This document shows positions 5,101 to 34,391 of a DNA stretch of 34,391 nucleotides, in pieces. Positions within the stretch are counted from its first letter, which is position 1, and every line of letters begins with the position of its first letter. Origin of the DNA: Thermoplasmatota archaeon (GTDB lineage: Archaea; Thermoplasmatota; Poseidoniia; Poseidoniales; Thalassarchaeaceae); the NCBI GenBank assembly GCA_030828405.1, contig JAURCP010000015.1, positions 1 through 34,391 on the forward strand, in the 5' to 3' direction. The notes under the pieces are model-generated. The model did not search any database, was not told the DNA's origin, and saw only the letters and a list, made by a program, of their open reading frames with translations. The position numbers and the translations under genes were made by a program.

Positions 5101-5204
5101 AATGGAGCCAATCTTTCATAGAAACGCTCCCAGAATACTACCTCATCATCGTATTCAGGTGAGGGGTCTGATAACGAAACTGAGGTCTCTCGCACATCGT
5201 CCAC
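2136..5204 (-). CDS. Large RND/MMPL-family exporter (1022 residues)
   Basis: Proton-driven RND-superfamily membrane protein of the MMPL/SSD type. A cytoplasmic N-terminus (about 1-85) leads into TM1 (about 88-106). A large extracytoplasmic domain (about 110-375) follows, then a membrane bundle (about 383-560) containing LGVDYALHL at about 445-453. TM7 (about 586-603), a second extracytoplasmic domain and a second bundle with GIGVDDSIHIVDR complete the duplicated architecture. The acidic GxD(Y/D) elements in both halves are the family's proton-relay signature. The extracytoplasmic parts contain paired cysteines and an acidic DTNGDGVWD segment (about 279-287) resembling a calcium-binding loop. 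The first codon is GTG; no in-frame ATG lies nearby. Substrate unknown: lipid, pigment or other hydrophobic cargo is typical of the family. Confidence 0.8.
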   Translation of the reverse strand: MDDVRETSVSLSDPSPEYDDEVVFWERFYERLAPFRDSLINIKKLAMESPLGDLYEIGARGINNTSDLFSRTAIRTAEISYSMILRSPGLIVAILILITALTVKPAMNFQDQINGDVEIYLPDGADSTELLLDVREAPWATDIFILYIQTNNAATGNERGDENITDVNILSQLSWLEGDDNNRLAGGYQDGLDTYKDDRGRNDGVIWILSPSQIIKEANSSSYRFNCAVEKYGLPTGPSDNCAISNSNPNEGYSIPDDQERVDTLVDQAGSLIESFVRDTNGDGVWDTGVIVMGLLFDMEETEIPRDNGLKDHKAFISYAEDLIYEKSGVNCELCLRTYVNPTSTMDEAYIDVIPARKAVTITGLTPVIHEVSDKIYKELVNVMLPISAVLVCLAMLILHRNPKVIIVGGLPIAMSLAITFGITVIFDIMLTPMIISAAPILVGLGVDYALHLTNRIEENRVELIEEKLEKAWEANRDGLNPETINPWDPVISLTATVRAGLTTGNAIMLSAMTTIIGFSVLTWTFLVPIQPMRTVGITLLIGIFVTFLLSMIMVPALVELLRYRKGKTQLFDKMWDRIGEIPVKGTIVVILAALVVTVLGVAMFSETMGQQIAAGRDEVPPNMASYEALVEYSTVFEGGQTNMFIINAEERGSVNGTAPIRDLPILDSIESLQIQVDNVPETDTISLVNILKAIHVDVNISGLEIYDQSLWEILHDECWDKSTDPFSPQCWAYTVSSKEDMVNIAFDTLSPEIRSMLMNEDTGFGETKTLVYANQPYINLYNATIYRNAIDDILEGEEECSGALRCTAINIDDTYNSLLTGGLPVSIDINDGVHKAQSLTTIWTMFILLIAMAFLFRSPRLAIFTMAAVGAVVLWQPLLMRFGGVGVNVFTAMIGTIVFGIGVDDSIHIVDRIKDEGETPAGIVKSVSKTGQTIFETTATTCAGLSAGLFVSIPGLQNFFVLMMVLLVLALLTSSILLPSIIVLQKEFTSRILGKGPWLDFEESGSLEKSSVMDAVIDSNV

Positions 5205-5382
5205 ATAGGCCTGCTATCACAGAGACCAAATGAAATAATCGCAAGTAAAATTACAAACATTGAGAATTAAGGTAAATTTAGATTTGACAAAAATATTAAA
5301 TTCTATATAGAATAATTAATTTGATTCAGAGCGACTATACGAATTACTGAAAGTAAATGAGTATGTCCGAGGATTGATTATA
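5205..5382. promoter_or_regulatory. Divergent promoter region between the exporter and the redox block
   Basis: AT-rich spacer between two divergent genes. For the rightward gene there is a TATA-like ATTCTATATAGAATAATT at about 5299-5316, itself partly palindromic (TTCTATATAGAA). A GAGG at 5369-5372 can act as a Shine-Dalgarno sequence for ATG 5383. No clear box is seen for the leftward gene, which starts with GTG at 5204. Confidence 0.35.
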
Positions 5383-6072
5383 ATGGCGAGACGCAGGAAA
5401 CCCTTGGTGCAAAAAGGAAGAGATGATGATGTCAGATTAATTGCAGGATTTACTCTAGGAACAATTTTGACAGTTATAATGCTATTAATAGTCATCATAG
5501 CACCACCCGCCACAATAGGGCCAAGTGAGGGTGAACTGGCTCCTGATTTCATTGCGGATGCCTATAATGGTGAAAATTGGCAGAGATTCAAACTTTCTGA
5601 TACATTTGACTATGAATGGGAAGAAGGAGGAGATGGAGAATGGATTTTAGTACAATTCAGCGATACGGATTGTCCATATTGCTGGACTGAAGCTGAAACA
5701 ATGAGTGAATTATACTCGCAGTGGTCAGAGAATGTAGAATTTATTACAATTGCTGTAGAATTAAATATTAATAATCACGATAGTGATAGAGCGGAAGTAG
5801 AAGCATTTCGAGATAAAACAAATTATGGAACCGAAGAAAATGATGGCGATGGCTGTAATTCTGGCAGGAATAATTGTGTAAATCGTCCCGGAGCGATACA
5901 TAATTGGAACTATATTGAAGGAAGTAGCAGCATTTTGGCAGACTGGGAAGTTTCCGGGACTCCGTTTTTGGTCCTACTACAACCAGATGGTTATGTGGCA
6001 TGGAATCAATATGAAAACGAAGGAGAGAATATTGAATCGGCAATGCAAAGACTCGTAGGTGATTCTCAATGA
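5383..6072 (+). CDS. Membrane-anchored thioredoxin-fold protein (CPYC active site)
   Basis: Predicted thiol-disulfide oxidoreductase tethered to the membrane with its catalytic domain outside. A basic N-terminus (RRRKP) is followed by one TM helix (about 18-40). A TlpA/AhpC-like thioredoxin domain begins with GELAPDF, and the redox motif DCPYC has cysteines at 97 and 100. A cis-Pro-type GTPFLVLL segment occurs near the C-terminus. Two further cysteines in a GDGCNSGRNNC insert may form a structural disulfide. ATG 5383 is preferred over TTG 5374 because of the GAGG Shine-Dalgarno. The stop overlaps the start of the VKOR gene by 4 nt (ATGA), so the two are translationally coupled and probably work as a redox pair. 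Confidence 0.85.
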   Translation: MARRRKPLVQKGRDDDVRLIAGFTLGTILTVIMLLIVIIAPPATIGPSEGELAPDFIADAYNGENWQRFKLSDTFDYEWEEGGDGEWILVQFSDTDCPYCWTEAETMSELYSQWSENVEFITIAVELNINNHDSDRAEVEAFRDKTNYGTEENDGDGCNSGRNNCVNRPGAIHNWNYIEGSSSILADWEVSGTPFLVLLQPDGYVAWNQYENEGENIESAMQRLVGDSQ

Positions 6073-6644
6073 GTGAGATTTTGACTGATCCGGTCCTGAT
6101 TATTTTCATTTTAGGCCTAGCTATTAGTAGTTACTTAATGATAGTAAATAATGAGAAAAAGACGTCAATGTTGCTAATCTCATCTCTGAGTTTTGCCTTT
6201 GTAGGCATAACTTCATCTGCATATACTTACATTATTCATAATCAAATGGTTGTTCAAGGAAGTACTGCATTTTGTTCATCTGAGGGAATTGTACAATGTG
6301 GTTCAGTAATTGGAGATCCACAATGGAATAACTTGTTTGGAGTTCCGTGGGGAATATTTGGAATATTATCTTTTTCAGCATTAATTTTTCTAAGTTTGTG
6401 TTTGTACCTTGATAGATATGCAAAATGGTCTGAAGATTATTTGAATTACGCATGGTGGGCTGGGATTGCAGGGTTGCCATTCGTCGCATTGTTGGTTATA
6501 ATCGAGTTAACTCAAGTTGAAAATGCTCCACATATTTGTCCATTTTGTACAATAGCACATATCTCACTAATTGGTTATGTGGGTTCAATTTATTTGTTGA
6601 GAAATAGAAGAAATATTGGGAAATGGTCGGAAAATGAGGGATAA
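6069..6644 (+). CDS. VKOR-family disulfide-generating membrane oxidase
   Basis: Vitamin K epoxide reductase-like integral membrane protein, expected to oxidise a partner thioredoxin-fold protein and pass electrons to a quinone. All four catalytic cysteines of the family are present: a loop pair at Cys69 and Cys77 (FCSSEGIVQCGSVIGD) and the CPFC active site at 157-160. The intervening PWG motif follows the usual GVPWGIFGI pattern. Hydrophobic segments lie at about 7-25, 33-55, 93-113, 128-147 and 162-177. Its 191 residues contain the VKOR core with no fused thioredoxin domain, and the separate partner is the gene directly upstream, overlapping by 4 nt. Together they form a plausible DsbA/DsbB-equivalent oxidative folding module. 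Confidence 0.9.
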   Translation: MSEILTDPVLIIFILGLAISSYLMIVNNEKKTSMLLISSLSFAFVGITSSAYTYIIHNQMVVQGSTAFCSSEGIVQCGSVIGDPQWNNLFGVPWGIFGILSFSALIFLSLCLYLDRYAKWSEDYLNYAWWAGIAGLPFVALLVIIELTQVENAPHICPFCTIAHISLIGYVGSIYLLRNRRNIGKWSENEG

Positions 6645-6645
6645 T

Positions 6646-7587
6646 ATGCATTTAGTCACAGGAGGCGCCGGTTTCATTGGATCTCATTTAGTAGATTCTT
6701 TAGTAGCCAAGGGAAACAGTGTAAGAGTTTTAGATAATTTTAGTAGTGGAAGAGAAGAGTTCTTGCAACATCACAAAGGTAAAGGAAAAGTAGAGATATT
6801 TAAGGCTGATTTATTAGACTTAGAATCTGTCAAGAAAGCCATGAAAGGAATTGATACCGTACATCATTTAGCAGCAAACCCAGATATAAGATTAGGTACT
6901 GAAATTACAGATACTGATCTTAAGCAAGGGACAATGGCAACTTATAATGTCTTAGAGGCAATGCGGCTGAATGATGTAAAAAGAATCTCTTTCTCATCTT
7001 CGAGTGCAATCTATGGTGAAGCAAACATTATGCCTACCCCAGAAACTTATGGTCCAATCTTACCAATCTCATTATATGGTGCATCAAAACTAGCGTCTGA
7101 AGCATTGATTAGTTCATGGTGTGGAACTTTCGGAGGGGAGGCTTGGATACACAGATTCGCTAATATCGTCGGACCTAGGGGCACTCATGGAGTGATTTTT
7201 GATTTCATTCACAAATTAAAAAATAATCCAAATAGACTAGAAGTTTTGGGTAATGGTTTACAAGAAAAATCATATATGTCTGCAGGAGATTGCGTTAGAG
7301 CAATGATACACCTAATCGATTATTCAAAAGAAAACGTAAGTCTTTACAACTTAGGTACAGGAGATACATGTTCAGTGAGAAGAATTGCAGAAATTGTAGT
7401 TGAAGAGAGTGGTCTAAAGAACGTTTCAATAGAATACACGGGAGGAGATAGAGGTTGGGCAGGTGATGTTCCAAAAACCTCATTAGATGTTGAACGATTA
7501 TTTGCGACAAAATTCGTACCTACGATGCAATCTGAAGATGCTATCAGATATACAGTCAAAGAATTAATCAAAGAAATCGGTCTTTGA
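6646..7587 (+). CDS. NAD-dependent sugar-nucleotide epimerase/dehydratase (extended SDR)
   Basis: Extended short-chain dehydrogenase of the UDP-glucose 4-epimerase/dTDP-glucose dehydratase group, probably modifying a sugar nucleotide for surface glycans or protein glycosylation. The Rossmann motif GGAGFIGSH is at residues 6-14, followed by VLDNFSSG, the HLAANPD cofactor segment, SSSSAIYGE, and the catalytic LYGASK (Tyr-x-x-x-Lys). The C-terminal substrate domain contains YNLGTGD and GGDRGWAGDVP. Start choice: TTG 6616, ATG 6634 and ATG 6646 are in frame. ATG 6646 begins 1 nt after the VKOR stop, has GAGGG 6 nt upstream and starts directly at the Rossmann fold, so it is used (313 residues). 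Co-directional with the redox genes. The exact substrate cannot be told. Confidence 0.87.
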   Translation: MHLVTGGAGFIGSHLVDSLVAKGNSVRVLDNFSSGREEFLQHHKGKGKVEIFKADLLDLESVKKAMKGIDTVHHLAANPDIRLGTEITDTDLKQGTMATYNVLEAMRLNDVKRISFSSSSAIYGEANIMPTPETYGPILPISLYGASKLASEALISSWCGTFGGEAWIHRFANIVGPRGTHGVIFDFIHKLKNNPNRLEVLGNGLQEKSYMSAGDCVRAMIHLIDYSKENVSLYNLGTGDTCSVRRIAEIVVEESGLKNVSIEYTGGDRGWAGDVPKTSLDVERLFATKFVPTMQSEDAIRYTVKELIKEIGL

Positions 7588-8494
7588 ATAGAATAACTGT
7601 TGAAATTAAACATATCAGTATTAAAGGGAATATAACATTAATTCCGTTCGAATTTTGACTATTATCCAAATTTAAAAATATAGCTCCTAATGTAGATCTT
7701 TGATCTTCAACTGTTTTTTCATGCGCTACGACAATAGAAATGTCTTCAGAAATCACATTTTCCAAAGAAAAATCGAGATTAATCTCAAAACTATCTATAT
7801 TTCTAGTCATTGAAATATTAGTAAATTGTGAATTGAAATTCGTTTCTGAAGACGTATTATCTTTGATGAAATTTGTATCTATATCCATATTCATATAAGC
7901 AATTGCAACATCCTCATGAGTTGTAATACCGTTTGTTGCTTGAGATTTATCAATATTAATCTCGGCCAATAAAAAAATACTAATTTGAGTATTATTGCTT
8001 GAATTATCAACATTAAATAAATTTACTCTCAAACTCAAGGAACTACTATCAAATATCTTGGCTGCTGAGATTGAAATTAAAGTATCTGAACCTCGATTTC
8101 CTTCAGAATTGAGCAAAGCCCTATCTAAGTCTACGGGATCGACCCTTCCTTTGATCTCGTTGTTACTATCAAACCAAAAAGAAGGAGCTAGTTCCAAACT
8201 ATTTGGATGGATAGATAATCTCTCAGAAGAAATTGAATTACCTAGAGGATCATTTACAGGATCATGCAAAGCAACTCTAACTAATCGAGAGCCACGGTCA
8301 TCTGCAAATTCAGAAACCCAGGGGTCTATTTGCGCACATACATCACACCAAGTAGCAGTATATTGTTCCATTAAGACAGAATTACCTCCTTCGACATACC
8401 AATTATTTGAGTCTTCTTCTGCAACGATATTAGATGATGGTAATGCTAACAATAGTAAAACTATGAAGCCACAGAACCCAGCGTTTCCCCCCAT
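7568..8494 (-). CDS. Secreted, C-terminally anchored thioredoxin-fold protein
   Basis: Predicted extracytoplasmic redox protein. A signal peptide (about 1-25, GFCGFIVLLLLALPSSNIVA) leads to a thioredoxin-like domain with TATWCDVCAQ, cysteines 50 and 53, the CxxC position of thioredoxins. The rest is a beta-rich region without obvious motifs. A C-terminal TM helix (VIFPLILICLISTVILF) ends in a short basic tail, giving a type I-like topology. ATG 8494 was chosen over the longer frame to 8548 because GGAGAG lies just upstream and the signal peptide starts there. The gene converges on the epimerase and their coding ends overlap by 20 nt. It is the second thioredoxin-fold protein within 3 kb of the VKOR gene, so it may be another client or partner. 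Confidence 0.75.
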   Translation of the reverse strand: MGGNAGFCGFIVLLLLALPSSNIVAEEDSNNWYVEGGNSVLMEQYTATWCDVCAQIDPWVSEFADDRGSRLVRVALHDPVNDPLGNSISSERLSIHPNSLELAPSFWFDSNNEIKGRVDPVDLDRALLNSEGNRGSDTLISISAAKIFDSSSLSLRVNLFNVDNSSNNTQISIFLLAEINIDKSQATNGITTHEDVAIAYMNMDIDTNFIKDNTSSETNFNSQFTNISMTRNIDSFEINLDFSLENVISEDISIVVAHEKTVEDQRSTLGAIFLNLDNSQNSNGINVIFPLILICLISTVILFKDRFL

Positions 8495-8550
8495 ATGCAA
8501 CTCTCCAAACGTCTTTACTTCATAACTAAGAGGCTGGACGAGACACACTG

Positions 8551-9309
8551 ATGAGTAAGCGCTGGTATCAAGAAAACCGTCGCGACCCTTGGAGAAGGCA
8601 AGCTAAATCTAAGGGATATAGAGCACGTTCTGCGTATAAATTGAAACAGATTCAAGAAAGGTTCGATATTATTAGAAAAGGAGATTATGTTCTAGACATT
8701 GGATGTCATCCTGGAGGATGGACACAGGTAGCTGTTGAAGAAGTGGGCGAAGATGGATATGTCATAGGTGTTGACTTATTGTCAACATCTCCCGTAGAAG
8801 GGGCTACAATTATAATTGGAGATATAACAAATCCCAAAACTGTGGAACAGATAAATCAAGAACTAGAAGGATATTTTCTAAACTGTGTCATTAGTGATAT
8901 CTCTCCAAGATTGACGGGACGTTACGATACAGACCAGGCAATCTCATTAGAATTATCCACGATGGTCCTAGATGCCGCGATGCCAATATTGAGTCCCGGA
9001 GGTTCTTTTGTAACAAAAATATTCCAAGGAGTCGGGATTGAGGGATTAATTGAAGCAGCTAAAATGAGATTTTCGAGTGTACAAAGATTCGCTCCAACGG
9101 CCTCTAGAAGTTCATCATCAGAAACTTACTTAGTATGTAGAAATAAATTACCTAAAATTAGAAAGGGAGCCGAAGGAAGAACTGCATATGAACATCTGAA
9201 AGATCATTTGAAATATCTTGATGTTGTTATCGATTACGAAGAAGAAAAAGACATTACTGATACAATAATTGGTTACAGGAAATATACAGGTCGGAAAAAT
9301 GAGGAATAG
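8551..9309 (+). CDS. rlmE: RlmE/FtsJ-type 2'-O-ribose RNA methyltransferase
   Basis: SAM-dependent 2'-O-ribose methyltransferase of the FtsJ/RrmJ family, expected to modify 23S rRNA or tRNA. The full K-D-K-E catalytic set is visible: Lys30 in SAYKL, Asp116 in SDISP, Lys156 in FVTKIFQG and Glu191 in SSSETYLVC. The SAM-binding motif is LDIGCHPGGWTQ (48-59). The core ends near 200, and about 50 extra residues with a mixed-charge character follow; they do not look like a classical TRAM domain. Divergent from the secreted thioredoxin-fold gene, with a TATA-like TTTACTTCATAACTAAG about 25-35 nt upstream of the ATG, so the message may have a very short leader. Confidence 0.92.
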   Translation: MSKRWYQENRRDPWRRQAKSKGYRARSAYKLKQIQERFDIIRKGDYVLDIGCHPGGWTQVAVEEVGEDGYVIGVDLLSTSPVEGATIIIGDITNPKTVEQINQELEGYFLNCVISDISPRLTGRYDTDQAISLELSTMVLDAAMPILSPGGSFVTKIFQGVGIEGLIEAAKMRFSSVQRFAPTASRSSSSETYLVCRNKLPKIRKGAEGRTAYEHLKDHLKYLDVVIDYEEEKDITDTIIGYRKYTGRKNEE

Positions 9310-9345
9310 TGTGTTTTAACACTTCAAGGTAATTGAAAAAAACAT

Positions 9346-9391
9346 TTACTTATATAATCAATAGCATCCGTTAAAACCAGAGGAACTTGAA
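9346..9391 (+). promoter_or_regulatory. Rhodopsin promoter and ribosome-binding site
   Basis: A canonical-looking archaeal TATA element (TTACTTATATAATC, 9347-9360) lies about 35-40 nt before the rhodopsin ATG at 9392. Transcription would start near 9380-9385. AGAGGAA at about 9380-9385 is a possible Shine-Dalgarno 7-8 nt from the ATG, though it might fall at or before the transcript start, in which case translation would be nearly leaderless. Confidence 0.55.
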
Positions 9392-10243
9392 ATGAATAGT
9401 AAGTTATCTAAATTTAGCCCAAGAACGAATGCCATAATTGCAGGTGCAACAATGTTAGCATTGATGATTACACAAAATGTTTCTGCTGCAACAATAGATC
9501 CGGAAACATACTATGCAGGAGATGCATTAGGAAGAGCTACTTTCTTCATGTTCTTCATAGGATATATTTCAATGGGTGCGGCTTTTGTTTTCTTCATGAG
9601 TGAAAGAAACAATGTTGCTCCAGAATACAGAACAACAATGACAATTTCTGCATTGATTGTTGGTATTGCGGCTTTCCACTACTACTATATGCGTGGAGTC
9701 TACATCGATACTGGCGCAGTTAGCACAGACTACAGATACATGGACTGGATTATTACTGTACCACTAATGGCTCTAAAATTCCCTTCACTAGTTGGAAAGG
9801 ATGCTATTACAGACAACAAAGTACTAGGTCTAGGATTCACAGGAGTCTGTTTCGTAGGTGCAATCATCATGATTGCATTTGGTTACCTTGGAGAAATTGG
9901 AGAAATTGATGCATGGGCTGGATTAATCCTTGGTGGAGTAGGTTGGGCTATGATTATGGTAGCAACTGGTCTTCCATTCGGTCTATACGACGGTAAGGGA
10001 GTAGATAACAGCAAAATCAAAGATGAATTAGTATGGAGTGCTAATGCTCTAAGAACATTCATTCTAGTCGGATGGATTATCTATCCTATTGGCTACTTAG
10101 TAGGTACAGACATAGTAGATTCTGGCTCTGACGGCAAAGAAATTATGGCTATATTATACAATATTGCTGACATGGTTAACAAGATCGGTTTCGGTGTTGT
10201 AGCATGGATGGGTGCTAAGAAAGCATCCGCAATGATGTCTTAA
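9392..10243 (+). CDS. Proteorhodopsin-type light-driven ion pump with DTK motif
   Basis: Seven-helix retinal protein, expected to pump protons outward in light. Aligned by eye to proteorhodopsin: His96 (PR His75), Arg115 (Arg94), Asp118 (proton acceptor Asp97), Thr122 (Thr101), Asp260 (Asp227) and Schiff-base Lys264 (Lys231) in IADMVNKIGFG. The PR proton donor Glu108 is replaced by Lys129, giving a DTK triad instead of DTE. The spectral-tuning position (PR 105) is Met126, predicting green absorption. Residues 1-33 look like a cleavable signal peptide ending in VSAA. It is monocistronic, with its own TATA box and a 15-bp hairpin behind it. Codons such as GGA, GCA and CTA dominate and no frameshift is seen. 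No retinal-synthesis gene (blh or crt) is in the window. Confidence 0.96.
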   Translation: MNSKLSKFSPRTNAIIAGATMLALMITQNVSAATIDPETYYAGDALGRATFFMFFIGYISMGAAFVFFMSERNNVAPEYRTTMTISALIVGIAAFHYYYMRGVYIDTGAVSTDYRYMDWIITVPLMALKFPSLVGKDAITDNKVLGLGFTGVCFVGAIIMIAFGYLGEIGEIDAWAGLILGGVGWAMIMVATGLPFGLYDGKGVDNSKIKDELVWSANALRTFILVGWIIYPIGYLVGTDIVDSGSDGKEIMAILYNIADMVNKIGFGVVAWMGAKKASAMMS

Positions 10244-10275
10244 ATCAAGAGCAAATATAGACAGATAAACGTAAA

Positions 10276-10308
10276 GGAAGGGCTGGGGATTTAATCCTCA
10301 GCCTTTCC
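10276..10308. terminator. Strong hairpin between rhodopsin and cupin genes (bidirectional terminator)
   Basis: Near-perfect inverted repeat: a 15-nt arm (10276-10290), a TTA loop and a 15-nt arm (10294-10308), with all positions paired if two G-U pairs are allowed. It lies 32 nt after the rhodopsin stop and 16 nt before the stop of the convergent cupin gene, so it can end both transcripts or protect the rhodopsin mRNA 3' end. It is GC-rich in an AT-rich genome and is followed by CTAAACTTAATT rather than a pure T-run. Confidence 0.7.
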
Positions 10309-10324
10309 CTAAACTTAATTCAGC

Positions 10325-10777
10325 TCATTCAGAACTTCTATCATAAGGTATAATGTTCTGCCATTCAGAAGCATCTGATCTCGAAACAATTGCTTCAACC
10401 CAATCTGTATCTGAGCAATTAAAAACTTCATGAGGCAAGCCCGGCTCAATGTAGAACATATCACCAGCACTATGAGTAACAGAATTATGACATCCAGGTC
10501 CAAACTCATGTCTTACGCTACCCTTTAGAAGAAATACCATTACATCAAAATCAACATGAATGTGGGCTTTAGCAATACCTCCGGGTGGAATAAATGCTTT
10601 ATTCATAGATAGTTTAGTTGCTGGAGTATTTTTACCAGATAAACCAGCACCATATTGAATATTGTTCCAACCCCTTACTTTGTGAACCTCCCTTAGACCA
10701 TGTATTCCACCAGCATCTTCGACATATTTGCTGAGGTCGCTTTGTTCGCCTTCCAAAATTAATTCATCTTCGCCCAT
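10325..10777 (-). CDS. Cupin-domain protein
   Basis: Single-domain cupin of 150 residues with a small beta-barrel that usually binds a metal. Cupin motif 1 is seen as AHIHVDFDVMVFLLKG with the two His ligands of HxH, and the usual Glu ligand position is not obviously conserved. Motif 2 is GDMFYIEPGLPHEVFN with the third His ligand. The N-terminal 45 residues contain a GGIHGLREVHK segment without known meaning. ATG 10777 is used; a GTG at 10792 would add 5 residues. No Shine-Dalgarno is evident, so initiation may be leaderless. It converges on the rhodopsin gene. Function unknown; such cupins act as dioxygenases, isomerases or sugar/auxin-type binding proteins. Confidence 0.8.
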   Translation of the reverse strand: MGEDELILEGEQSDLSKYVEDAGGIHGLREVHKVRGWNNIQYGAGLSGKNTPATKLSMNKAFIPPGGIAKAHIHVDFDVMVFLLKGSVRHEFGPGCHNSVTHSAGDMFYIEPGLPHEVFNCSDTDWVEAIVSRSDASEWQNIIPYDRSSE

Positions 10778-10875
10778 TTTATCACTAAACACTGGGACGA
10801 GATTTTACTTACAAAATATCCGTATAGATGGCAATAATGGCTATTGGGCTAGATATTCTATTCTATCTCTTCAAT

Positions 10876-10901
10876 CAAGCCTAAAAAGGGGTGGTGGCTC
10901 G
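10876..10901 (+). promoter_or_regulatory. G-rich leader motif upstream of zinc-ribbon/aEF-1 beta genes
   Basis: The segment starting CAAGCCTAAAAAGGGG and ending GGCTCG lies in the 5' region of the small zinc-ribbon gene. A similar segment is found on the minus strand at 13069-13096 before rpo11. It could be a leader structure or operator shared by translation/transcription genes, or coincidence. A possible TATA element (GATATTCTATTC) lies just upstream at about 10853-10864. Confidence 0.25.
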
Positions 10902-10924
10902 CCCGACCTATCCGAGGGACAGAA

Positions 10925-11092
10925 ATGGGAAGTAGAGCAGAAGTTTGCACATCATCAGGAGTGCCTCTAGTGGATAATAAAAGTACAGCGTTTCCGTGCC
11001 CAGAATGTGGTACATCAATAGGTAGAAGCGCACAGTGCAGAACACAAGCAGTCCCTTACATATGCCCAACTTGTGGTTTCCAGGGTCCTTGA
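10925..11092 (+). CDS. Small archaeal zinc-ribbon protein (HVO_2753-like), 55 residues
   Basis: A 55-residue protein with four zinc-ligand pairs: Cys8 with SSG, CPEC (25-28), Cys38 in AQCR, and CPTC (47-50), ending in the family's GFQGP. This is the pattern of the conserved archaeal two-zinc-finger mini-protein (HVO_2753 family, formerly DUF1610-like), which is characteristically encoded directly upstream of aEF-1 beta, exactly as here. AGGGACAG just upstream of the ATG may serve as the ribosome-binding site. Its stop lies 15 nt before the aEF-1 beta start, so the two form an operon. The family is linked to translation or RNA by its gene neighbourhood, but its molecular role here is inferred only. 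Confidence 0.88.
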   Translation: MGSRAEVCTSSGVPLVDNKSTAFPCPECGTSIGRSAQCRTQAVPYICPTCGFQGP

Positions 11093-11107
11093 ATTGAGGT
11101 GTTAATT

Positions 11108-11374
11108 ATGGGTCATGTCGTTGTAAAATATAAGGTAACTATAAACAATCCAGAAGATGGTACTCCAGATTACCAATCTATTGCAGATGTAATCGATTCT
11201 TTTGATGAAGTACAAGCAGTAGAAATTAAACCTCTTGCATTTGGAATGATGTTTATTGAAGTCCAAGTAGTTCTAGGTGAAGGCGAAGGAATCGTAGATG
11301 AATTTGAAGAAAGAGTCAGAGCAATCAATCCCCTAGTTGGCCAGATAGAAGCTCTAGAAATGGGAAGACTTTGA
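11108..11374 (+). CDS. ef1b: Translation elongation factor aEF-1 beta
   Basis: Guanine-nucleotide exchange factor that recharges aEF-1 alpha with GTP during elongation. The 88 residues form the EF1-GNE ferredoxin-like domain: the opening GHVVVKYKVT strand, the DYQSIADVIDSF helix, and AVEIKPLAFGMMFIEVQVV corresponding to the conserved exchange-loop region. Length matches archaeal aEF-1 beta (about 88-90). ATG 11108 is chosen over GTG 11099 because GAGGTG lies 6-7 nt upstream and MGHV is the normal N-terminus. It follows the zinc-ribbon gene and converges on truD with 16 nt between the coding ends. Confidence 0.92.
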   Translation: MGHVVVKYKVTINNPEDGTPDYQSIADVIDSFDEVQAVEIKPLAFGMMFIEVQVVLGEGEGIVDEFEERVRAINPLVGQIEALEMGRL

Positions 11375-11390
11375 ATAATTCTAACATTAA

Positions 11391-12788
11391 TCAATAGTGA
11401 TCTAAAGGAGAACGCATTAGTTCTCTCATCAATACTGTTGCATAAGTCCCTGGTGGCAGAATAAATTTCATTCTCATGCTACAACCCTCTGGAGTCCATA
11501 AATCATTTTCTTTAGGGCCTTCTTCCCACCTTTTCGAAATTGAAGATTCATGAATTTCAGGGACTTCTTCAATTGAAAAATCTCTGAACATGACTGACAA
11601 TGGCCTCCTTGTACCGTTAGTAGAAAGACGTGGGATTGCGGATACCTTCCAGTCAATTGAATCTAAACTAGTTTTTTCAAGTGCTTTTTTCTCTACTTCA
11701 CCTGGAACTCCTGTAGCAATTGGTGCATCATTGCCTGGTAGAGGGCCTGTTACAGCTAAACGACCTAATCTACAATTCCTACGACATCTTTCTAAATTTG
11801 TATCGCTCACTTCAGACATTTTTCCTACATCAATTCTACCACTTGGTTGAACTGGAGCCACTAAGTCACCTATTTCTGGTTCGACAATGCCAATATTTGA
11901 TTTAAGTCTACCAGCTAATGAATGGTTAAATGCTAATGATTGAAGAGAATGAACTGTAAGTAGTTGTAATGAAGGAGGGAGAGTTTTGTATGCCTTAACC
12001 CAATTTTCAGGTTGTTTCTGTAAACTCTCTAACATATTTCTTTCAAACCCTAAATGTTTAGGAATAATTTCAAGACACTTTTCAGGATTTCCTGTTTCTC
12101 TCCACATTTCTCTAAAAAGTTCAGTTTCTTCACCGTCATTTAATCCTTTCATACCAAGATATAGATTGACTGCTTCGTGGAAATTTTCTGACACAACAGC
12201 ACGTCCGACTTCTGGAGTTACGGGTCTAGTAGAACCAAATCGTTGAGGCCCTATCCAATTGGGAAAAACATTCTCACCAAGTTTCTCTGACATCTTAGAA
12301 ACTAATTCTAATACCCTCCTCATGGCCTCTTTACCATCCATAGGATCGCCATTCTCATAGCAACAACCCCTAACAGTTATTGAAAAACGATTACCATCAT
12401 GATCAGACATGCCAATTTTCTGATGTGTTCGACCTAAAATTTCTATTGTTGTATCTGGAATAACTACTGATTCAACTTTTTTCCTTGGAGCATCAATAAC
12501 TAGAAGTTGCGTAGTAATCGCTCTCTTATCTTTTAAGCCAGATGCAAAAATACGATTTCTATTTATTCCACATGCTCTTGAAAGCCTCTTAAGAAAACGA
12601 TTTGTTTCCCAGTTTACTAGTGTGACCCTGGCTACTGTAAAACGACCTTTAGGGTCCAGTGCAGGTATAGGAGATACTTCTTCAACTCTGAAATCTTCTA
12701 CTCTAACCTTTAAAATTCCTCCAATCCCAAGACCTTCGACGGCTCCAGAACCAAAACCAAGGTATTCTTCAATGGACTTATTATCCAT
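11391..12788 (-). CDS. truD: tRNA pseudouridine synthase D
   Basis: Isomerises uridine to pseudouridine in tRNA (position 13 in characterised TruD enzymes). The TruD signature GLKDKRAITTQ carries the catalytic Asp (Asp87 counted from this start). NWIGPQRFGS supplies the family's F/I-G-x-QRFG motif, and the C-terminal PPGTYATVLMRELMR is typical. An insertion domain between is present, giving 465 residues, the usual archaeal/eukaryotic size. The alternative TTG at 12797 would lie immediately after the rpo11 stop; ATG 12788 is preferred. It is transcribed after rpo11, 10 nt apart, so co-transcription of an RNA polymerase subunit and a tRNA-modifying enzyme is likely. Confidence 0.93.
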   Translation of the reverse strand: MDNKSIEEYLGFGSGAVEGLGIGGILKVRVEDFRVEEVSPIPALDPKGRFTVARVTLVNWETNRFLKRLSRACGINRNRIFASGLKDKRAITTQLLVIDAPRKKVESVVIPDTTIEILGRTHQKIGMSDHDGNRFSITVRGCCYENGDPMDGKEAMRRVLELVSKMSEKLGENVFPNWIGPQRFGSTRPVTPEVGRAVVSENFHEAVNLYLGMKGLNDGEETELFREMWRETGNPEKCLEIIPKHLGFERNMLESLQKQPENWVKAYKTLPPSLQLLTVHSLQSLAFNHSLAGRLKSNIGIVEPEIGDLVAPVQPSGRIDVGKMSEVSDTNLERCRRNCRLGRLAVTGPLPGNDAPIATGVPGEVEKKALEKTSLDSIDWKVSAIPRLSTNGTRRPLSVMFRDFSIEEVPEIHESSISKRWEEGPKENDLWTPEGCSMRMKFILPPGTYATVLMRELMRSPLDHY

Positions 12789-12798
12789 ATTCAACAAC

Positions 12799-13056
12799 TT
12801 ATAATTCTAAATTAGATAATTCTTTGTTAATATCTGAACAGAGGTCACGGAAGACTTTCTCTGCTTTCTTGCCTTTAACACAACGAACGTACAGTTCAGG
12901 CTCATCTAAATCTGGATGTTTTTGGAAGTAATTTGCATAATCTACATCTTTGCTATCATTAAGCCGTGAACGGAAAAGTTGTAAGGTAGAATGATTCTCT
13001 CCGATGATTCTTAGGCGAAGTTCGGTTCCTTCGTTTTTCAAGACTTTGATTGGCAT
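12799..13056 (-). CDS. rpo11: DNA-directed RNA polymerase subunit L (Rpo11)
   Basis: Small assembly-platform subunit of archaeal RNA polymerase, partner of Rpo3 (bacterial alpha/eukaryotic Rpb3-Rpb11 equivalent). The 85 residues show the family pattern: LKNEGTELRLRIIGENHSTL at the N-terminus, a DYANYFQKHPDLDEPELYVR strand-turn-strand and a C-terminal helix. The frame extends upstream to 13146, but the sequence before ATG 13056 is unlike the family and the start at MPIKVLKNEG matches other Rpo11 proteins. GAAAGG lies about 9 nt upstream of this ATG. First gene of the rpo11-truD pair, and its leader contains a G-rich hairpin-prone motif. Confidence 0.92.
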   Translation of the reverse strand: MPIKVLKNEGTELRLRIIGENHSTLQLFRSRLNDSKDVDYANYFQKHPDLDEPELYVRCVKGKKAEKVFRDLCSDINKELSNLEL

Positions 13057-13068
13057 AAGACAGCCTTT

Positions 13069-13096
13069 CGAGTGGCCCCCCCTTTTTGAGGGCTTG
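13069..13096 (-). promoter_or_regulatory. G-rich leader motif upstream of rpo11
   Basis: On the minus strand this reads CAAGCCCTCAAAAAGGGGG continuing to CCACTCG, 12 nt before the rpo11 ATG. GCCC and GGGC can pair around the A-run. It resembles the motif at 10876-10901 before the zinc-ribbon/aEF-1 beta operon in content, order and position. Regulatory role is speculative. Confidence 0.25.
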
Positions 13097-13164
13097 CCTT
13101 CGAATGCTGGCGCTTGAAGGGACAGAGAACGGTCTAAGTTTAACACCGATATTGATTCGGGTTA

Positions 13165-15723
13165 ATGATGGAGGGGGGCGAATCAAGAGAAGAAAGGTTC
13201 GCCGAAGTGTTTGGAAGATTAGCCCCGGCAATACTAATTATCAGCCTATTATTAACTGTTATAACAGCGTCAGTGCTTGTTCCCCTACCGGAATTCACAA
13301 CCGACCTTTCAGCATTCGCACCTGAGAATGAAGCAAAATCTGCGGAAGAAAGGATGAACCTAGTAATGGAGGATACGCCAAATAGAATTTATGTTCATGT
13401 CACACCAAATGAGGAAGGAGCTAATGTATTAGAAATCGGAGCATTGCAACAATTACATAATGATTTAGAAAGTATTGATGAGAAATTTGGTAACGGAATT
13501 ATATCTCATATCAATATTGCAAGTATTTTACAAAATATCCTTGAAGAAAGAGATAATCAAAGTAGGACTATACAGGATTTTAATGAATGGGATAATCTGA
13601 TATTAGCAATAATAAATGATGATGAAGAATGTACAGATGCAATAGGGAACGACCAAGCAATAGCTTCGGCAACATTTGCTAAAGATGCTTTATTAAATAC
13701 TAATTTTGATTACATTCATGTTTGTGATTGGATTGTTACCAAAGAAGGTTCTTCTACGCCTATTTCATCTAGTACCATGTGGGTAATAGAAATTGATGGA
13801 TCTTTAGATTCCAAGGAAAGGCAGAACCTTGCAAAAAGTATCAGAGAAGTCCTAACAGAAAATATAACTTCAGATTCAAGCACTGTATTGAATTATGGGG
13901 TCATATCTGATGATCTAATCAGTAATGACATTAATGACACCACTTTAGATAATTTTACTTGGTTGTTGATGCTAGCAATTATTGTTGTAGTATTTGTTTT
14001 AGCAGTAGTTTTCCGTTCAGCATTAATGATTGCTGCGCCTTTACTAGGACTTACTGCAGCATTGGTTTGGACGTATGGGACTATTACCTTGCTAGGAAGG
14101 CCTTTTTCCATACTTGAAGTCGCAGTGGCTCCGGTGGTTTTTGGTCTGGGAATTGACTACGCAATCCACCTTCAAAGAGGATACGAAGAAGCTCGTAAAC
14201 ATTCTAACTCTGCTGCTCATGCATGGGTAAGGGCATTCTCAATATTGAGAGTCGCTTTAACACTAGCAGTGGTAACTACAGTATCTGCTTTCCTTGCAAG
14301 TTCATTATCTCCACTACCTCCCTTACGAACCTTTGGCATAACTTTAGCATTAGGCGTAGTATGTGCTTTTATTGCAAGTACAGTTACAGTAGGGGCTTTA
14401 CACGTAGTTGTTGAGAAAACAACTGGAGTAAAGAAAAGAAAGCCTATTGATTTGTCTAAATTTGCTGATTTAGCAACAAATTTCCAAAAAAGAAATACTG
14501 CTAGAATTTTACTTGTTGTCGTTTTATTAACAACTAGTTCAGTATTCTTAGCAGGAACTAAACTTGAAACTAGTTTTGAACTGACTGATTTCCTTTCTGA
14601 TGAAGATATGCCAATAATGGAAGTTAGGGGGGATATGTACGAATCTTATGATGCTGCGGCTTGGAAGTCTGTGACAATACTTATTGAACCAACTGAGGGT
14701 AAAGATTCTTTATCTGGAGAAAGAGATATGCTCCGAGGACTTGACATGTTAGATCTTAGAATTTCTACTATTTCAGGAGTTGTTATTCCAACAAATACTG
14801 ATTCACAACGTCCATCATATGATGGATTATATCCAATTCTCAGAGATGCAATAGAAGCAGATTCTAGTTTTGGTGAAACTTTCCATTTAGGGATTTATGA
14901 TGGTAGATTAGATGTGGGAGATGGTTTTGTTGAAGGAGATTTGTCTGCAGCAGTCCATTCACTATTACTTAATGAATCAATTGGGGAACCATTGAGAGGA
15001 CAGTCTTGGAGTGAAAGAACATCGATGTATGTCGCTCTTACGGATGATAATAATAGCATCAAATATCTAAAAATTAGAATAGATGTTATCGCAGAAACAA
15101 GTGAACAAACTTCAGTATTAGCAGTGGAATTTGAAAAACAAGCAGAATGGATTGAAGATTCAGGATATATAGATGCAGATGCTCACATCGGAGGAGATGT
15201 GATGATGATTCACAGTATTTTTTCAGGGCTAGTTGTCTCACAAGTTGAATCGACGGGCTGGAGTTTACTAGTTTCAATACTAGTATTATTTATCTTAACT
15301 AGAAGATTAGGTCAATCACTGGTAGTAATTTTGCCGGTTGGAATTAGTGGTTCTTGGGTTGTTGGTTCGATGGCAATCCTTGGGTTAAATTGGAATGTAT
15401 TAACCATAATGATTACAGCACTAACTGTTGGATTAGGAATTGATTATTCCATACATGTTTGGAGAAGTTTTGAAAGTAATCGAAGATCAGGCCATGGGGT
15501 GTGGGAATCTATGAAAATTATGTACCAAACTACTGGGACTGCACTCATCATGTCTGCTGGCACTACAATATGCGGATTTTTAGTGTTAAAATTGTCTCCT
15601 ATACCTGTGATACAAGATTTTGGAATTGTTAGCTCAATTTCCGTTGCATTTTCTCTAATCTTAGCATTGTTTGTTCTACCAGGATTATTAGCGGCTGAAG
15701 TCACAACTTCCAGTGAAAACTAG
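13165..15723 (+). CDS. RND/MMPL-family membrane transporter (852 residues)
   Basis: Second RND-superfamily protein in the window, shorter and simpler than the one at 2136-5204. It shows the duplicated plan. TM1 (about 20-42) and an extracytoplasmic domain come first, then a bundle containing GLGIDYAIHLQRGYEEA. TM7, a second extracytoplasmic domain and a second bundle with VGLGIDYSIHVWRSFE follow. Both GxGxDY elements keep the acidic residue used for proton coupling. The HVTPNEEG region and a lack of paired cysteines distinguish it from the larger exporter. Start is ATG-ATG at 13165/13168. It is divergent from rpo11 and its stop overlaps the DUF2240 gene stop by 3-4 nt on the opposite strand. 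Family certain, cargo unknown. Confidence 0.82.
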   Translation: MMEGGESREERFAEVFGRLAPAILIISLLLTVITASVLVPLPEFTTDLSAFAPENEAKSAEERMNLVMEDTPNRIYVHVTPNEEGANVLEIGALQQLHNDLESIDEKFGNGIISHINIASILQNILEERDNQSRTIQDFNEWDNLILAIINDDEECTDAIGNDQAIASATFAKDALLNTNFDYIHVCDWIVTKEGSSTPISSSTMWVIEIDGSLDSKERQNLAKSIREVLTENITSDSSTVLNYGVISDDLISNDINDTTLDNFTWLLMLAIIVVVFVLAVVFRSALMIAAPLLGLTAALVWTYGTITLLGRPFSILEVAVAPVVFGLGIDYAIHLQRGYEEARKHSNSAAHAWVRAFSILRVALTLAVVTTVSAFLASSLSPLPPLRTFGITLALGVVCAFIASTVTVGALHVVVEKTTGVKKRKPIDLSKFADLATNFQKRNTARILLVVVLLTTSSVFLAGTKLETSFELTDFLSDEDMPIMEVRGDMYESYDAAAWKSVTILIEPTEGKDSLSGERDMLRGLDMLDLRISTISGVVIPTNTDSQRPSYDGLYPILRDAIEADSSFGETFHLGIYDGRLDVGDGFVEGDLSAAVHSLLLNESIGEPLRGQSWSERTSMYVALTDDNNSIKYLKIRIDVIAETSEQTSVLAVEFEKQAEWIEDSGYIDADAHIGGDVMMIHSIFSGLVVSQVESTGWSLLVSILVLFILTRRLGQSLVVILPVGISGSWVVGSMAILGLNWNVLTIMITALTVGLGIDYSIHVWRSFESNRRSGHGVWESMKIMYQTTGTALIMSAGTTICGFLVLKLSPIPVIQDFGIVSSISVAFSLILALFVLPGLLAAEVTTSSEN

Positions 15724-31686: not shown

Positions 31687-31762
31687 GCTCGTGTAGTGTA
31701 GTGGTCCATCATGAAGCCCTCTCGAGGCTTCGACCCGGGTTCAAATCCCGGCACGAGCACCA
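31687..31762 (+). tRNA. tRNA-Glu (CTC anticodon), CCA encoded
   Basis: Complete cloverleaf: acceptor GCTCGTG/CACGAGC, D arm around GTGTAGTGGTCCATCAT, and anticodon stem AAGCC/GGCTT enclosing CTCTCGA with anticodon CTC. The T arm is CCGGG-TTCAAAT-CCCGG. Discriminator A73 and 3' CCA are encoded. No intron is seen. Its 3' end faces the tyrosine recombinase gene 0.6 kb downstream, the common layout of an archaeal tRNA attachment site (attL candidate: T arm to CCA, about 31731-31762). No second copy of that stretch was found to the right within the window. Confidence 0.95.
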
Positions 31763-31881
31763 TTTGTCCGGTATTCAACCGATAGACTGCGTTTTCTCAT
31801 AATTTGGTTTGAACCTCTTTACTTTCAAAAAAAGGTAAGGGTGAGTGAATCGCTTAAACGACAATGACGCGTGGAAATTTT

Positions 31882-32412
31882 ATGTCCGATAAAAAATCAC
31901 GTACTAGGCGACAAGAGTTTTTATACAGAAATGAAGAAATGAAAATACTGCATATGGCTAAATTAAAGAAAGCGGAACTCACCATAACAGAATTCTTCAA
32001 TCAGCGTGTAGATGAGTACCTCCAAACGGAGGAATACCCGGGCGTGGATTATTCTGGTATGAAAATTAAGATGAATGAGTTGGAAAAAGAAAATGAACAA
32101 TTGAGAGCAACTCTACTAATCAAATCAGGTGCTTTGAAGCAAACTAAAGGTGAATTGAGAACCATTCGTGCCGAAACAATTGGCTCATTGAATCCGCAAG
32201 AATCATTGAATTTGAGTATTCAGATCGAATCAGCGATAAAGGAAGCAGGTTCAATCACTCGCAGTGACTTACTTTCACTAATCGAAGAGCCTGAGAAAAT
32301 AAAAGGAATACTTGGTTTACTATCACAAGTAGAACTACGATTGGTTCAACAATCTAAGATTGTGATAACCAATGGAGGTGAACTTCATTGGATAGGAACA
32401 AATCTGAATTGA
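31882..32412 (+). CDS. Coiled-coil DNA-binding-like accessory protein of the integrase module
   Basis: A 176-residue soluble protein of unknown family. The N-terminus is strongly basic (SDKKSRTRRQEFLYRNEE) and followed by a helix pair MAKLKKAELTITEFFNQRVDEYL, an arrangement like ribbon-helix-helix or small MobC-type proteins. Residues about 65-105 form a coiled coil (MNELEKENEQLRATLLIK). The C-terminal half is helical and ends in ITNGGELHWIG. ATG 31882 gives a tidy start; ATG 31864 is an alternative adding 6 residues. It overlaps the recombinase gene by 25 nt, so the pair is coupled. A directionality factor, recombination accessory or repressor are reasonable guesses, none proven. Confidence 0.65.
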   Translation: MSDKKSRTRRQEFLYRNEEMKILHMAKLKKAELTITEFFNQRVDEYLQTEEYPGVDYSGMKIKMNELEKENEQLRATLLIKSGALKQTKGELRTIRAETIGSLNPQESLNLSIQIESAIKEAGSITRSDLLSLIEEPEKIKGILGLLSQVELRLVQQSKIVITNGGELHWIGTNLN

Positions 32413-33380
32413 ACGAGAAAGCAATAATTCGTAATCTCGAGTTAGTTGATCTTTATGTTGAAGATATTACAGAATATCAAAATCTGTCAACATCGACAAT
32501 TCGAACTTGCGTTCCTGATGCAAAGAGAGCCGCAAAAATATTCGGAGAAATGGGTGTGACTTTCGACCAAATCGATGTGCATGATCTCAAAAAATTCATG
32601 AAGACTGTAGATGAGATATCACCTAGAAAAGATGGGCTGACACTTGGAAGATTGAAGGGGATATTCAGTCAATTGAATTCTATGATGGAATTCCTTGTTT
32701 ACAGTAACTACGCTCAAACAAACAAAGTTCCAGGATTCAGAAAGAGATATTTGAAGTCGTACAAGAATTCAGTATCGCAATCGACAGAGAAACAAGTTCC
32801 CCCTGATTCACAATTATCTGAGATGATTTATTCAATTCAAGATATTCAAATAAGAGCTTACCATCTTCTACTGGCGAAAACGGGCCTTCGAAGAGAAGAA
32901 TCGATTTTACTCAATATTGAAGATGTTGACTTGGTTGAACGATCAATTACCACATCTCGATTTAGGAAGAGGACTAACCGTAGGCTACCTATCGACAAGG
33001 AATGTACTTCTGCATTGGAATCGTACTTCCGTAGTATGCCAACTTATCCGAGAGTTGAGGGTGAGGAATCTCTGTTTGTGAATAGAGAAGGTAGGCGTAT
33101 TGGAAAGAATACAGTTAGTAGATGGGTAAATCAAAATGCGCAAAGATGTGGATTCCATGACCCGTCTGCAGATATATTAGAGAGACATAAGAAGTTTGGT
33201 CCACATAATTATCGTCACTGGTTTACTACTGCTTTGAGACGAAATGATTGCCCTGAGAGGATAATCAAACATCTTCGAGGAGATGCGGACAATTCTACTG
33301 CGGATCGTTATGATCATGTGACTTGGGAGGAGGTCGTGGATTCATACACTGCTTGTATTCCTGAGCTAATAGGAAGTTAA
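32388..33380 (+). CDS. Tyrosine recombinase/integrase
   Basis: Site-specific recombinase of the phage-integrase family, 330 residues, with all catalytic positions recognisable: Arg168 (TGLRREE), Lys194 in the RKRTNRRLPI beta hairpin, His273 and Arg276 (HNYRHWF), His295 (KHLRGD) and nucleophile Tyr308 (DRYDHV). The N-terminal SAM-like core-binding domain spans about 15-115. The start is TTG 32388: GGAGGTGA at 32374-32381 is the best Shine-Dalgarno in the window at ideal spacing, and no suitable ATG exists. There is no sign of truncation or of the split-gene (SSV-type) arrangement. Immediately downstream of tRNA-Glu, hence the probable integrase of an element inserted there. Confidence 0.93.
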   Translation: MDRNKSELNEKAIIRNLELVDLYVEDITEYQNLSTSTIRTCVPDAKRAAKIFGEMGVTFDQIDVHDLKKFMKTVDEISPRKDGLTLGRLKGIFSQLNSMMEFLVYSNYAQTNKVPGFRKRYLKSYKNSVSQSTEKQVPPDSQLSEMIYSIQDIQIRAYHLLLAKTGLRREESILLNIEDVDLVERSITTSRFRKRTNRRLPIDKECTSALESYFRSMPTYPRVEGEESLFVNREGRRIGKNTVSRWVNQNAQRCGFHDPSADILERHKKFGPHNYRHWFTTALRRNDCPERIIKHLRGDADNSTADRYDHVTWEEVVDSYTACIPELIGS

Positions 33381-33424
33381 ATCCCAGTAAAAGAAATATT
33401 TTCTCACTAGATTTTTACGTCGAA

Positions 33425-33598
33425 TTAAGTATCTTCGTTATCATCCCAATATTCTTCCTTCCAATCTATCTCAGAATCAAGGGCACCCTTCATTCCGCAT
33501 TTACTACATTTTATCTTAATCAATACATGAGTATACTCTATCTCTAAAATATCCCATAAGCTAAACTCGTTATTCCATTCATGTTTACATGTTGTCAT
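33425..33598 (-). CDS. Small zinc-binding protein, 57 residues
   Basis: A short frame on the minus strand, ATG 33598 to TAA 33425. It has a CKHEW motif (Cys4, His6) near the start and CSKCG (31-34) in the middle, a C-x-H...C-x-x-C set suitable for one zinc ion, followed by an acidic tail (EEYWDDNEDT). The protein pattern MTTCKHEWN...IKIKCSKCGMKG resembles the short zinc-ribbon proteins often found in archaeal viruses and integrated elements. It is convergent with the recombinase, 44 nt apart. Absence of a known family and the small size keep the confidence moderate. Confidence 0.6.
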   Translation of the reverse strand: MTTCKHEWNNEFSLWDILEIEYTHVLIKIKCSKCGMKGALDSEIDWKEEYWDDNEDT

Positions 33599-33785
33599 AG
33601 AACTTTAGTTAATCATTGACAGTTATTGAAGACATCTATTAGAATCACTTTGATCGATTGATAACCCTATCTTTCTGCTTGAAGCAAAGGGTACCCTATG
33701 ATGCAATATGCACTATAGGGGGGCCCTTTCCTCAATATTAATACAAAATAGTAATATTAATAAGCCGTGAATATATAATGAAAAT
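33599..33785. other. 187-nt palindrome-rich intergenic region
   Basis: No gene. Contains CTTTCTGCTTGAAGCAAAGG (33671-33690, partly palindromic), the perfect palindrome AGGGTACCCT (33688-33697), GGGCCC within a G-run (33721-33726 region) and an AT-rich inverted pair AATATTAATAC/GTAATATTAA (about 33735-33762). ATATATAAT lies at 33770-33778, only 8 nt before the next ATG. The setting, between element genes, suits operators, a replication or recombination site, or a promoter. Confidence 0.4.
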
Positions 33786-34157
33786 ATGGTAAAAAGGAAA
33801 GAAAATAATATCGATACGATGGACACGTTTGTATTCACATCAGACAAGGTGCACGCTGACCTTTACAGCGTCATAGTGGACTTGGACTTGATAATTAGGA
33901 GGCATTCAGGGCCACCGCACGCACCATCCATAGAGCATCTGACTAACAACAAGGATGCCTTTGAGAAAGATGCATTGAGGTTGATATGGAGCATAGTACA
34001 TGCTAACCTAGATGTAGATACAATAGATGATGAATCACCACAGAAAGGGCAAGCAGGTCTGTTTCCTACAAGAGTAGGTAGACCTGACATCACACATCTA
34101 ATGTGGCAGTTGAAGAACTACAACAAGAAAACTGAAAAGAAGTTCGCAGAGTACTAG
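33786..34157 (+). CDS. Hypothetical 123-residue protein with atypical base use
   Basis: Not recognised. Soluble, without cysteines, signal peptide or TM helix; mixed alpha/beta appearance. It has an N-terminal basic stretch (VKRKENN), VHADLYSVIVDLDLIIRRHS, then FEKDALRLIWSIVHANLDVD and a C-terminal QLKNYNKKTEKKFAEY. Synonymous choices favour GAC, AAC, CAC, CTG and AAG more than the rest of the window, and local GC is visibly higher, which suggests a different origin. No Shine-Dalgarno; with a TATA-like element or AT-rich operator just upstream it may be leaderless. It lies at the right of the integrase module. Possibly element cargo. Confidence 0.6.
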   Translation: MVKRKENNIDTMDTFVFTSDKVHADLYSVIVDLDLIIRRHSGPPHAPSIEHLTNNKDAFEKDALRLIWSIVHANLDVDTIDDESPQKGQAGLFPTRVGRPDITHLMWQLKNYNKKTEKKFAEY

Positions 34158-34391
34158 TTCTGAACCAACATAGTATTTTCTAAGGAATACTGAAACTATA
34201 GCGCCCCCCTTTGCTTATTTGGAATAACTAATGGGACATTATGGCAGACCCAATGGTTCAGATTTGACGATAGTAACCGTTGTACTGCAATACAGCGTAT
34301 TCGCTACCCTTTGGTTCACATACTAGCGGAATGGGCCCCCATGCAATCAGTAGTGAAAGCATAACCTGATTACGCCGAAAATATAATCAAC
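34158..34391. other. Right-edge non-coding stretch
   Basis: No convincing gene to the window end. A hairpin AGTATT-(8 nt)-AATACT at 34172-34191 follows the 123-residue ORF and may terminate it. A 31-codon frame at 34231-34326 (ends VLQYSVFATLWFTY) has no support. GGGCCCCC at about 34340 mirrors the G/C-run near 33716-33726, and TACCCTTTG at about 34307-34315 is the reverse complement of CAAAGGGTA near 33685-33693. Confidence 0.35.

Follow-up and report, generated by a model that had tools for sequence, protein, structure and literature searches.

Proviruses and islands integrated at tRNA ends are a known kind of archaeal element (PMC8371274, PMC8651126, PMC11705971). The archaeal integrases that have been characterised function without directionality factors, the integrase of the haloarchaeal virus SNJ2 being a modulated exception: it is co-encoded with the small modulating proteins Orf2 and Orf3, two extra proteins that raise integration in vivo (PMC8371274). 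In bacteria, some directionality factors, RdfS among them, are small DNA-binding proteins that have a winged helix and are associated with a tyrosine recombinase (PMC11963761). Poseidoniales (Marine Group II) are abundant and uncultured archaea, and their integrated elements have scarcely been described. The two described Poseidoniales virus families were judged lytic in their ICTV profiles (PMC10768690, PMC12999244). Charybdis elements of clade P, of about 4.6 kb, integrate beside Poseidoniales tRNA genes and acquired an integrase as an accessory gene; Charybdis gp3 is a double Greek-key protein (PMC12324425). Integration at tRNA genes as such therefore has a precedent in this order.

We analysed a stretch of 34,391 nucleotides (the window), which is the whole contig C6 (1-34391) of genome G000, which comes from a Poseidoniales archaeon, the host group that had been supposed, and is assembled in 69 contigs (1.41 Mb, 81% complete). 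The original prediction placed an integrated element at the 3' end of a tRNA-Glu(CTC) gene. This was borne out by a second att copy and by empty sites in relatives. Very probably, a mobile element has used its own tyrosine recombinase to insert at that site, and the locus contains its left end. Like the archaeal proviruses and islands cited above, it has an intact integrase at its end, an insertion at a tRNA end and short direct repeats; it differs from them by its own integrase clade and a fixed, overlapping partner gene. The kind of element is already known, while the module that integrates it appears to be a variant without earlier description.

The target tRNA-Glu(CTC) gene (31687-31762, forward strand; ARAGORN) has an encoded CCA and is complete on the left side of the element. 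The same tRNA lies in the same context in nine other genomes of the genus. As had been proposed for relatives, empty tRNA-Glu sites were found, in seven congeners (G043, G044, G045, G047, G050, G052 and G053). In these, the upstream genes and the tRNA are kept, the DNA resembles that of the window as far as 31762, the final base of the tRNA (query position 163 of 251), and no further, and a GMP reductase/IMP dehydrogenase-like gene comes directly after the tRNA, an integrase being absent. The sole genome similar past the tRNA was G049, with 91% DNA identity over 1630 bp, to just beyond the integrase stop. Of the 13 genomes of the genus, two have the integrase. G049 has the occupied left junction on contig C52 and also a contig, C59, starting four bases before the whole tRNA and running into ordinary chromosome. 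In G046, one contig breaks off with the final base of the tRNA, and its last 141 bp recur in another, where chromosome follows them. These contigs of G049 and G046 fit mixed populations with occupied and empty sites, which is suggestive only. The ends of the two G046 contigs (C6 and C5; L074/L078) have exactly 141 bp in common, up to the last tRNA-Glu base, forming an assembly fork at the att site.

The window ends 1011 bp past the integrase, so the right boundary cannot lie inside it, and its absence up to 34391, noted at the outset, is explained by the end of the contig. The chromosome that adjoins the tRNA in relatives was found in G000 on contig C22. The first 715 bp of C22 are foreign, unrelated to the region upstream of the tRNA, and are joined to the chromosome via a 17-bp core: C22:716-732 (attR) is identical to 31746-31762 (attL, forward strand), both reading TCCCGGCACGAGCACCA. 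By comparison, the longest word common to the tRNA and the shuffled C22 end was 11 bp (300 dinucleotide shuffles). When the window up to 31762 was joined to C22 from 733, the product aligned to G045, the closest relative, with 96.8% identity over 1361 bp and no gaps. Since the flanks joined at att recreate the empty site of relatives, the element replaces nothing. The arrangement is a textbook attL-element-attR, with the tRNA complete at attL, on the integrase side. A direct repeat of the tRNA 3' segment, about 20-45 bp long, had been expected in the sequence to the right; the second copy does exist, on another contig of the same assembly, and its length is 17 bp. With att direct repeats, an empty site restored by the joined flanks and an intact integrase beside att, the locus has the features of a site-specific integrative element. 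It is not of the SSV (suicidal integrase) type, as att lies outside the gene and the integrase reading frame is whole. Another candidate for attR, contig C17 of G000, was rejected, since it contains the last part of a tRNA-Glu(TTC) gene followed by that gene's own downstream region. When the 17-bp core was searched in 2.9 million IMG/VR contigs, it matched no Marine Group II element; its six matches were chance hits on unrelated, GC-rich contigs.

Both junction contigs end within the element, as they would in an assembly chimera or around an ordinary conserved chromosomal neighbourhood. Such an explanation has almost no probability left: the identical left junction was independently assembled in G049, the site is empty in seven congeners and an exact 17-bp repeat stands at the right place. 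The original prediction had been staked on a second att copy and on a gene order not conserved in all relatives. The copy sits at the correct chromosomal junction, and the order is broken by the seven congeners without integrase, only two of 13 genus genomes having the gene.

The left part of the integrated element (31763-34391, forward strand; 2629 bp, cut by the contig end) carries an intact tyrosine recombinase gene at 32388-33380 on the forward strand, encoding 330 aa (Pfam PF00589, 1.1e-20; PHROG integrase, 8.4e-28), so the complete recombinase expected downstream of the tRNA was confirmed. The protein contains R168 (TGLRRE), H273-x-x-R276 and a C-terminal RYDH tyrosine motif, and in its LRGD motif a D takes the place of the usual H/W. 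Its start codon is TTG, and a Shine-Dalgarno-like GGAGGTGA, read from the sequence at 32374-32381 (forward strand), lies 6 nt before it, within the partner gene. Compared with G049, the integrase dN/dS was 0.28, indicating purifying selection. The best solved relative was XerA of Thermoplasma (PDB 5hxy, 4.4e-10), with the same catalytic fold; XerA is a housekeeping chromosome-dimer resolvase, whereas the integrase of the element is a gene separate from the XerA-like one in the same genome. Against phage records, nothing but distant XerC-like matches was obtained.

We then compared the window with G049 at the DNA level. The integrase is 93.5% identical and the partner gene 87%, whereas host genes of the same two contigs are much less so (OTC 73.6%, a DUF3860-domain gene 72%, UbiA 65%). 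The identity of the integrase against 65-74% for neighbouring host genes, in a gene common to only one other genome of the genus, indicates horizontal movement. Conversely, G045 has flanking genes 95-96% identical to those of the window and no integrase. For one Poseidoniales element, the integrase, its target, the two junctions, the site in its empty state and a recent interspecies transfer are now documented.

Directly upstream of the integrase, a partner reading frame (31864-32412, forward strand) overlaps it by 25 bp. Its start is probably at 31882 (gene 31882-32412), because the ATG at 31864 is not conserved in G049. The claim of a coupled accessory gene with a coiled coil therefore held: the overlap is present and a coiled coil is predicted. 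The partner dN/dS against G049 was 0.67. In an AlphaFold2 model (mean pLDDT 83), two short helices at the N-terminus precede a long one at 63-105 and a C-terminal winged helix; the protein is thus predicted to combine a coiled coil with a winged helix. Foldseek matches were winged-helix domains, none below E 0.001. From this modelled fold, the partner would bind DNA. The N-terminus has the motif R-x-[IV]-x-V-Y-L-P-S, a helix, G-x-S-x-S-K-F-V and a further helix, resembling ribbon-helix-helix proteins. As the profile search reached Arc at E 0.36 and ParG at E 0.45 only, a ribbon-helix-helix N-terminus, although probable, is a lead and not a result.

The association of the partner with this integrase is close. 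A partner HMM found it at 26 of 27 loci of the integrase family outside the order, at all six further Poseidoniales loci and at none of 29 XerA-type loci, most positives being in the training alignment and L119, L155, L161, L165 and L114 outside it. In G545 (C16; L151:15043-15588, reverse strand), a second copy of the partner gene lies 12 kb from the first, on the opposite strand. As a small protein encoded with an integrase and predicted from its fold to bind DNA, the partner shares one feature with directionality factors. It resembles the SNJ2 system, likened by description, in which the integrase is likewise co-encoded with small modulating proteins, two there and one here. It likewise resembles RdfS in its predicted fold, and differs from it in that a coiled coil and a probable ribbon-helix-helix precede the winged helix. 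In the mechanism we propose, the integrase would act reversibly, recombining a circular attP with the 3' end of the tRNA, and the product of the overlapping partner gene would bind DNA flanking att and either assemble the recombination complex or set its direction. We tentatively suggest, leaning slightly against rather than for it, that the partner defines a family of archaeal integrase co-factors, dedicated to directionality or assembly and serving one integrase lineage across Thermoplasmatota and tailed archaeal viruses. We found no published description of this integrase-partner family in open-access text. If the suggestion is true, an archaeal integrase has a dedicated factor, whereas the characterised ones reportedly need none, and one module mobilises both viruses and defence islands, among them an island at tRNA-Glu in the abundant archaea of Marine Group II. 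The question raised is whether this archaeal integrase depends on its co-encoded factor.

To place the integrase, we searched 319 genomes of the order with a family threshold of E below 1e-10, one XerA-like match being set apart. It was found in seven, G000, G049, G313, G220, G312, G217 and G212, and these Poseidoniales integrases form one clade with 100/100 support. A tRNA is visible at six of the seven loci, the window included, and it is always tRNA-Glu (CTC or TTC); the G217 locus is cut by the contig end. In G212, from another family of the order, the neighbourhood is the same (OTC, UbiA, a DUF3860-like gene and tRNA-Glu CTC). With the alignment as query, the integrase family was detected in 31 of 390 Thermoplasmatota genomes, the order included. 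Outside the order, most of 20 loci have the pair after a tRNA-Ser, Gly, Leu, Gln, Arg or Glu: ARAGORN detected a tRNA directly upstream at 12 and none at three, two have no upstream sequence and, judged by eye, the tRNA is an intron-split tRNA-Glu in G390 and G463 and probably a split tRNA in G329. The integrase-partner pair therefore offers a search handle for integrated elements throughout an archaeal phylum.

Two relatives outside the order are complete. In G320 (C3), a 13.4 kb element at tRNA-Ser(GGA) is flanked by a 17-bp att and carries a Type III methyltransferase, a Type III restriction enzyme and a UvrD-PDDEXK helicase. In G514 (C10), a 22.0 kb element at tRNA-Gly(CCC) is flanked by a 21-bp att and carries DrmA, DrmE and a BrxP-like PAPS reductase; the DrmA/DrmE-like genes beside the latter (L148, about 4007-13465) are an unusual defence mixture. 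No downstream repeat of the tRNA 3' end of at least 10 bp was found in the G220, G313, G312 and G212 contigs. The pair also opens four IMG/VR contigs (L116-L119), which run on into primase and terminase, with a portal in L116 and L117, and L116 begins with a tRNA-Ser. Its presence both in tailed virus contigs and in att-flanked defence islands indicates that the integration module serves both.

These viral contigs, together with the tRNA-Ser at the start of one of them, speak for the element being an integrated tailed virus, and so does a 123-aa reading frame of the window (33786-34157, forward strand) with kin of 97% amino acid and 92% DNA identity in IMG/VR contigs of 46 and 56 kb. We nevertheless consider a provirus rather unlikely. 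The two complete relatives carry restriction-modification and DISARM-like cargo in the reading frames examined, and the ICTV profiles of two magrovirus families give no integrase (PMC10768690, PMC12999244). The G000 assembly has no terminase, which is not decisive with the interior of the element unassembled; none was found in eight Poseidoniales assemblies (G000 and seven related). Analogy with its att-flanked relatives makes a full provirus less probable than a small integrative island or virus satellite that carries genes for defence or against competitors. A Charybdis element of clade P would have the host order and the type of site in common with it, and 3.34 kb of known sequence together with the gap would be compatible with the Charybdis size. 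This is far less probable still, as an alignment-based scan of IMG/VR, which contains thousands of Charybdis genomes, gave the integrase only on contigs of 6.5-51 kb and on none of 3.7-5.2 kb, the Charybdis size; moreover, no visible reading frame has the size described for gp3 (about 230 aa), gp3 being compared by description.

The genes to the right of the integrase had been taken for orphans, one of them for a small zinc protein. This stands for a 57-aa reading frame (33425-33598, reverse strand) with a CxH...CxxC pattern, a possible zinc ribbon for which no relative was found to support the assignment; a link to a 69-aa viral zinc protein was discarded, the match covering 11 residues only. 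It does not stand for the 123-aa frame, given its marine virus kin. The 123-aa protein is also 89% identical to that of a gene on a 38 kb IMG/VR contig with a thermosome and an ERCC4 nuclease, and the DNA similarity to viral contigs is confined to the reading frame. Judged from the sequence of this gene, the cargo is partly viral in origin.

At the right end (C22:1-715), an HNH-like protein gene (C22:2-358, reverse strand) encodes a protein 46% identical over 96 aa to an HNH protein beside the integrase in G220, where the genes for this HNH family and its 140-aa neighbour come immediately after an integrase of this type. We infer from the shared att, the location and the HNH-integrase pairing in G220 that the two ends, on different contigs, belong to one element. 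Alternatively, two or more elements could stand in tandem at the site, with attL and the integrase from one and the HNH right end from another. G046 and G050 have copies of the right-end HNH protein with 99% identity, against only 64-76% for their UbiA compared with that of the window, and in both genomes (G046:C30, L168:1-1206; G050:C3, L169:11496-12618) the HNH and 122-aa cassette abuts a partial copy of the tRNA-Gln(CTG) 3' end. This tRNA is a second integration site, with the right-end cassette in common and different left ends. That the cassette also ends these insertions, that a different integrase adjoins that tRNA in G050 and that contig C31 of G049 has a further 21-bp att-like copy would suit a tandem; the direct succession of integrase and HNH family in G220 argues against it, and we regard it as unlikely, a single element being preferred. 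The G050 recombinase, of about 438 aa, lies downstream of tRNA-Gln(CTG) on the opposite strand (C10; L190, tRNA at 322406-322427). The G049 match (L066:33-53) is to the tRNA-Glu att and includes three bases of the left end of the element; its contig, 4.3 kb long and richer in GC, could represent a junction of another element or of a tandem one.

Elsewhere, the same HNH gene and its neighbour precede a Type I methyltransferase in G034 (C22; L170:11212-13566), and related ones precede a CHAT-domain protein in G247 (C125; L173:863-5519). By analogy, this would favour an island with defence or competition genes. The HNH gene and its neighbour of about 121-150 aa in these two genomes may be an undescribed defence cassette. 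The HNH protein, the 122-aa protein and a 236-aa protein of G049 had no kin in IMG/VR, nor had the HNH protein any in phages. Finally, at the end of contig C52 of G049 (L033:12778-12927), an imperfect palindrome of 150 bp lies within the element.
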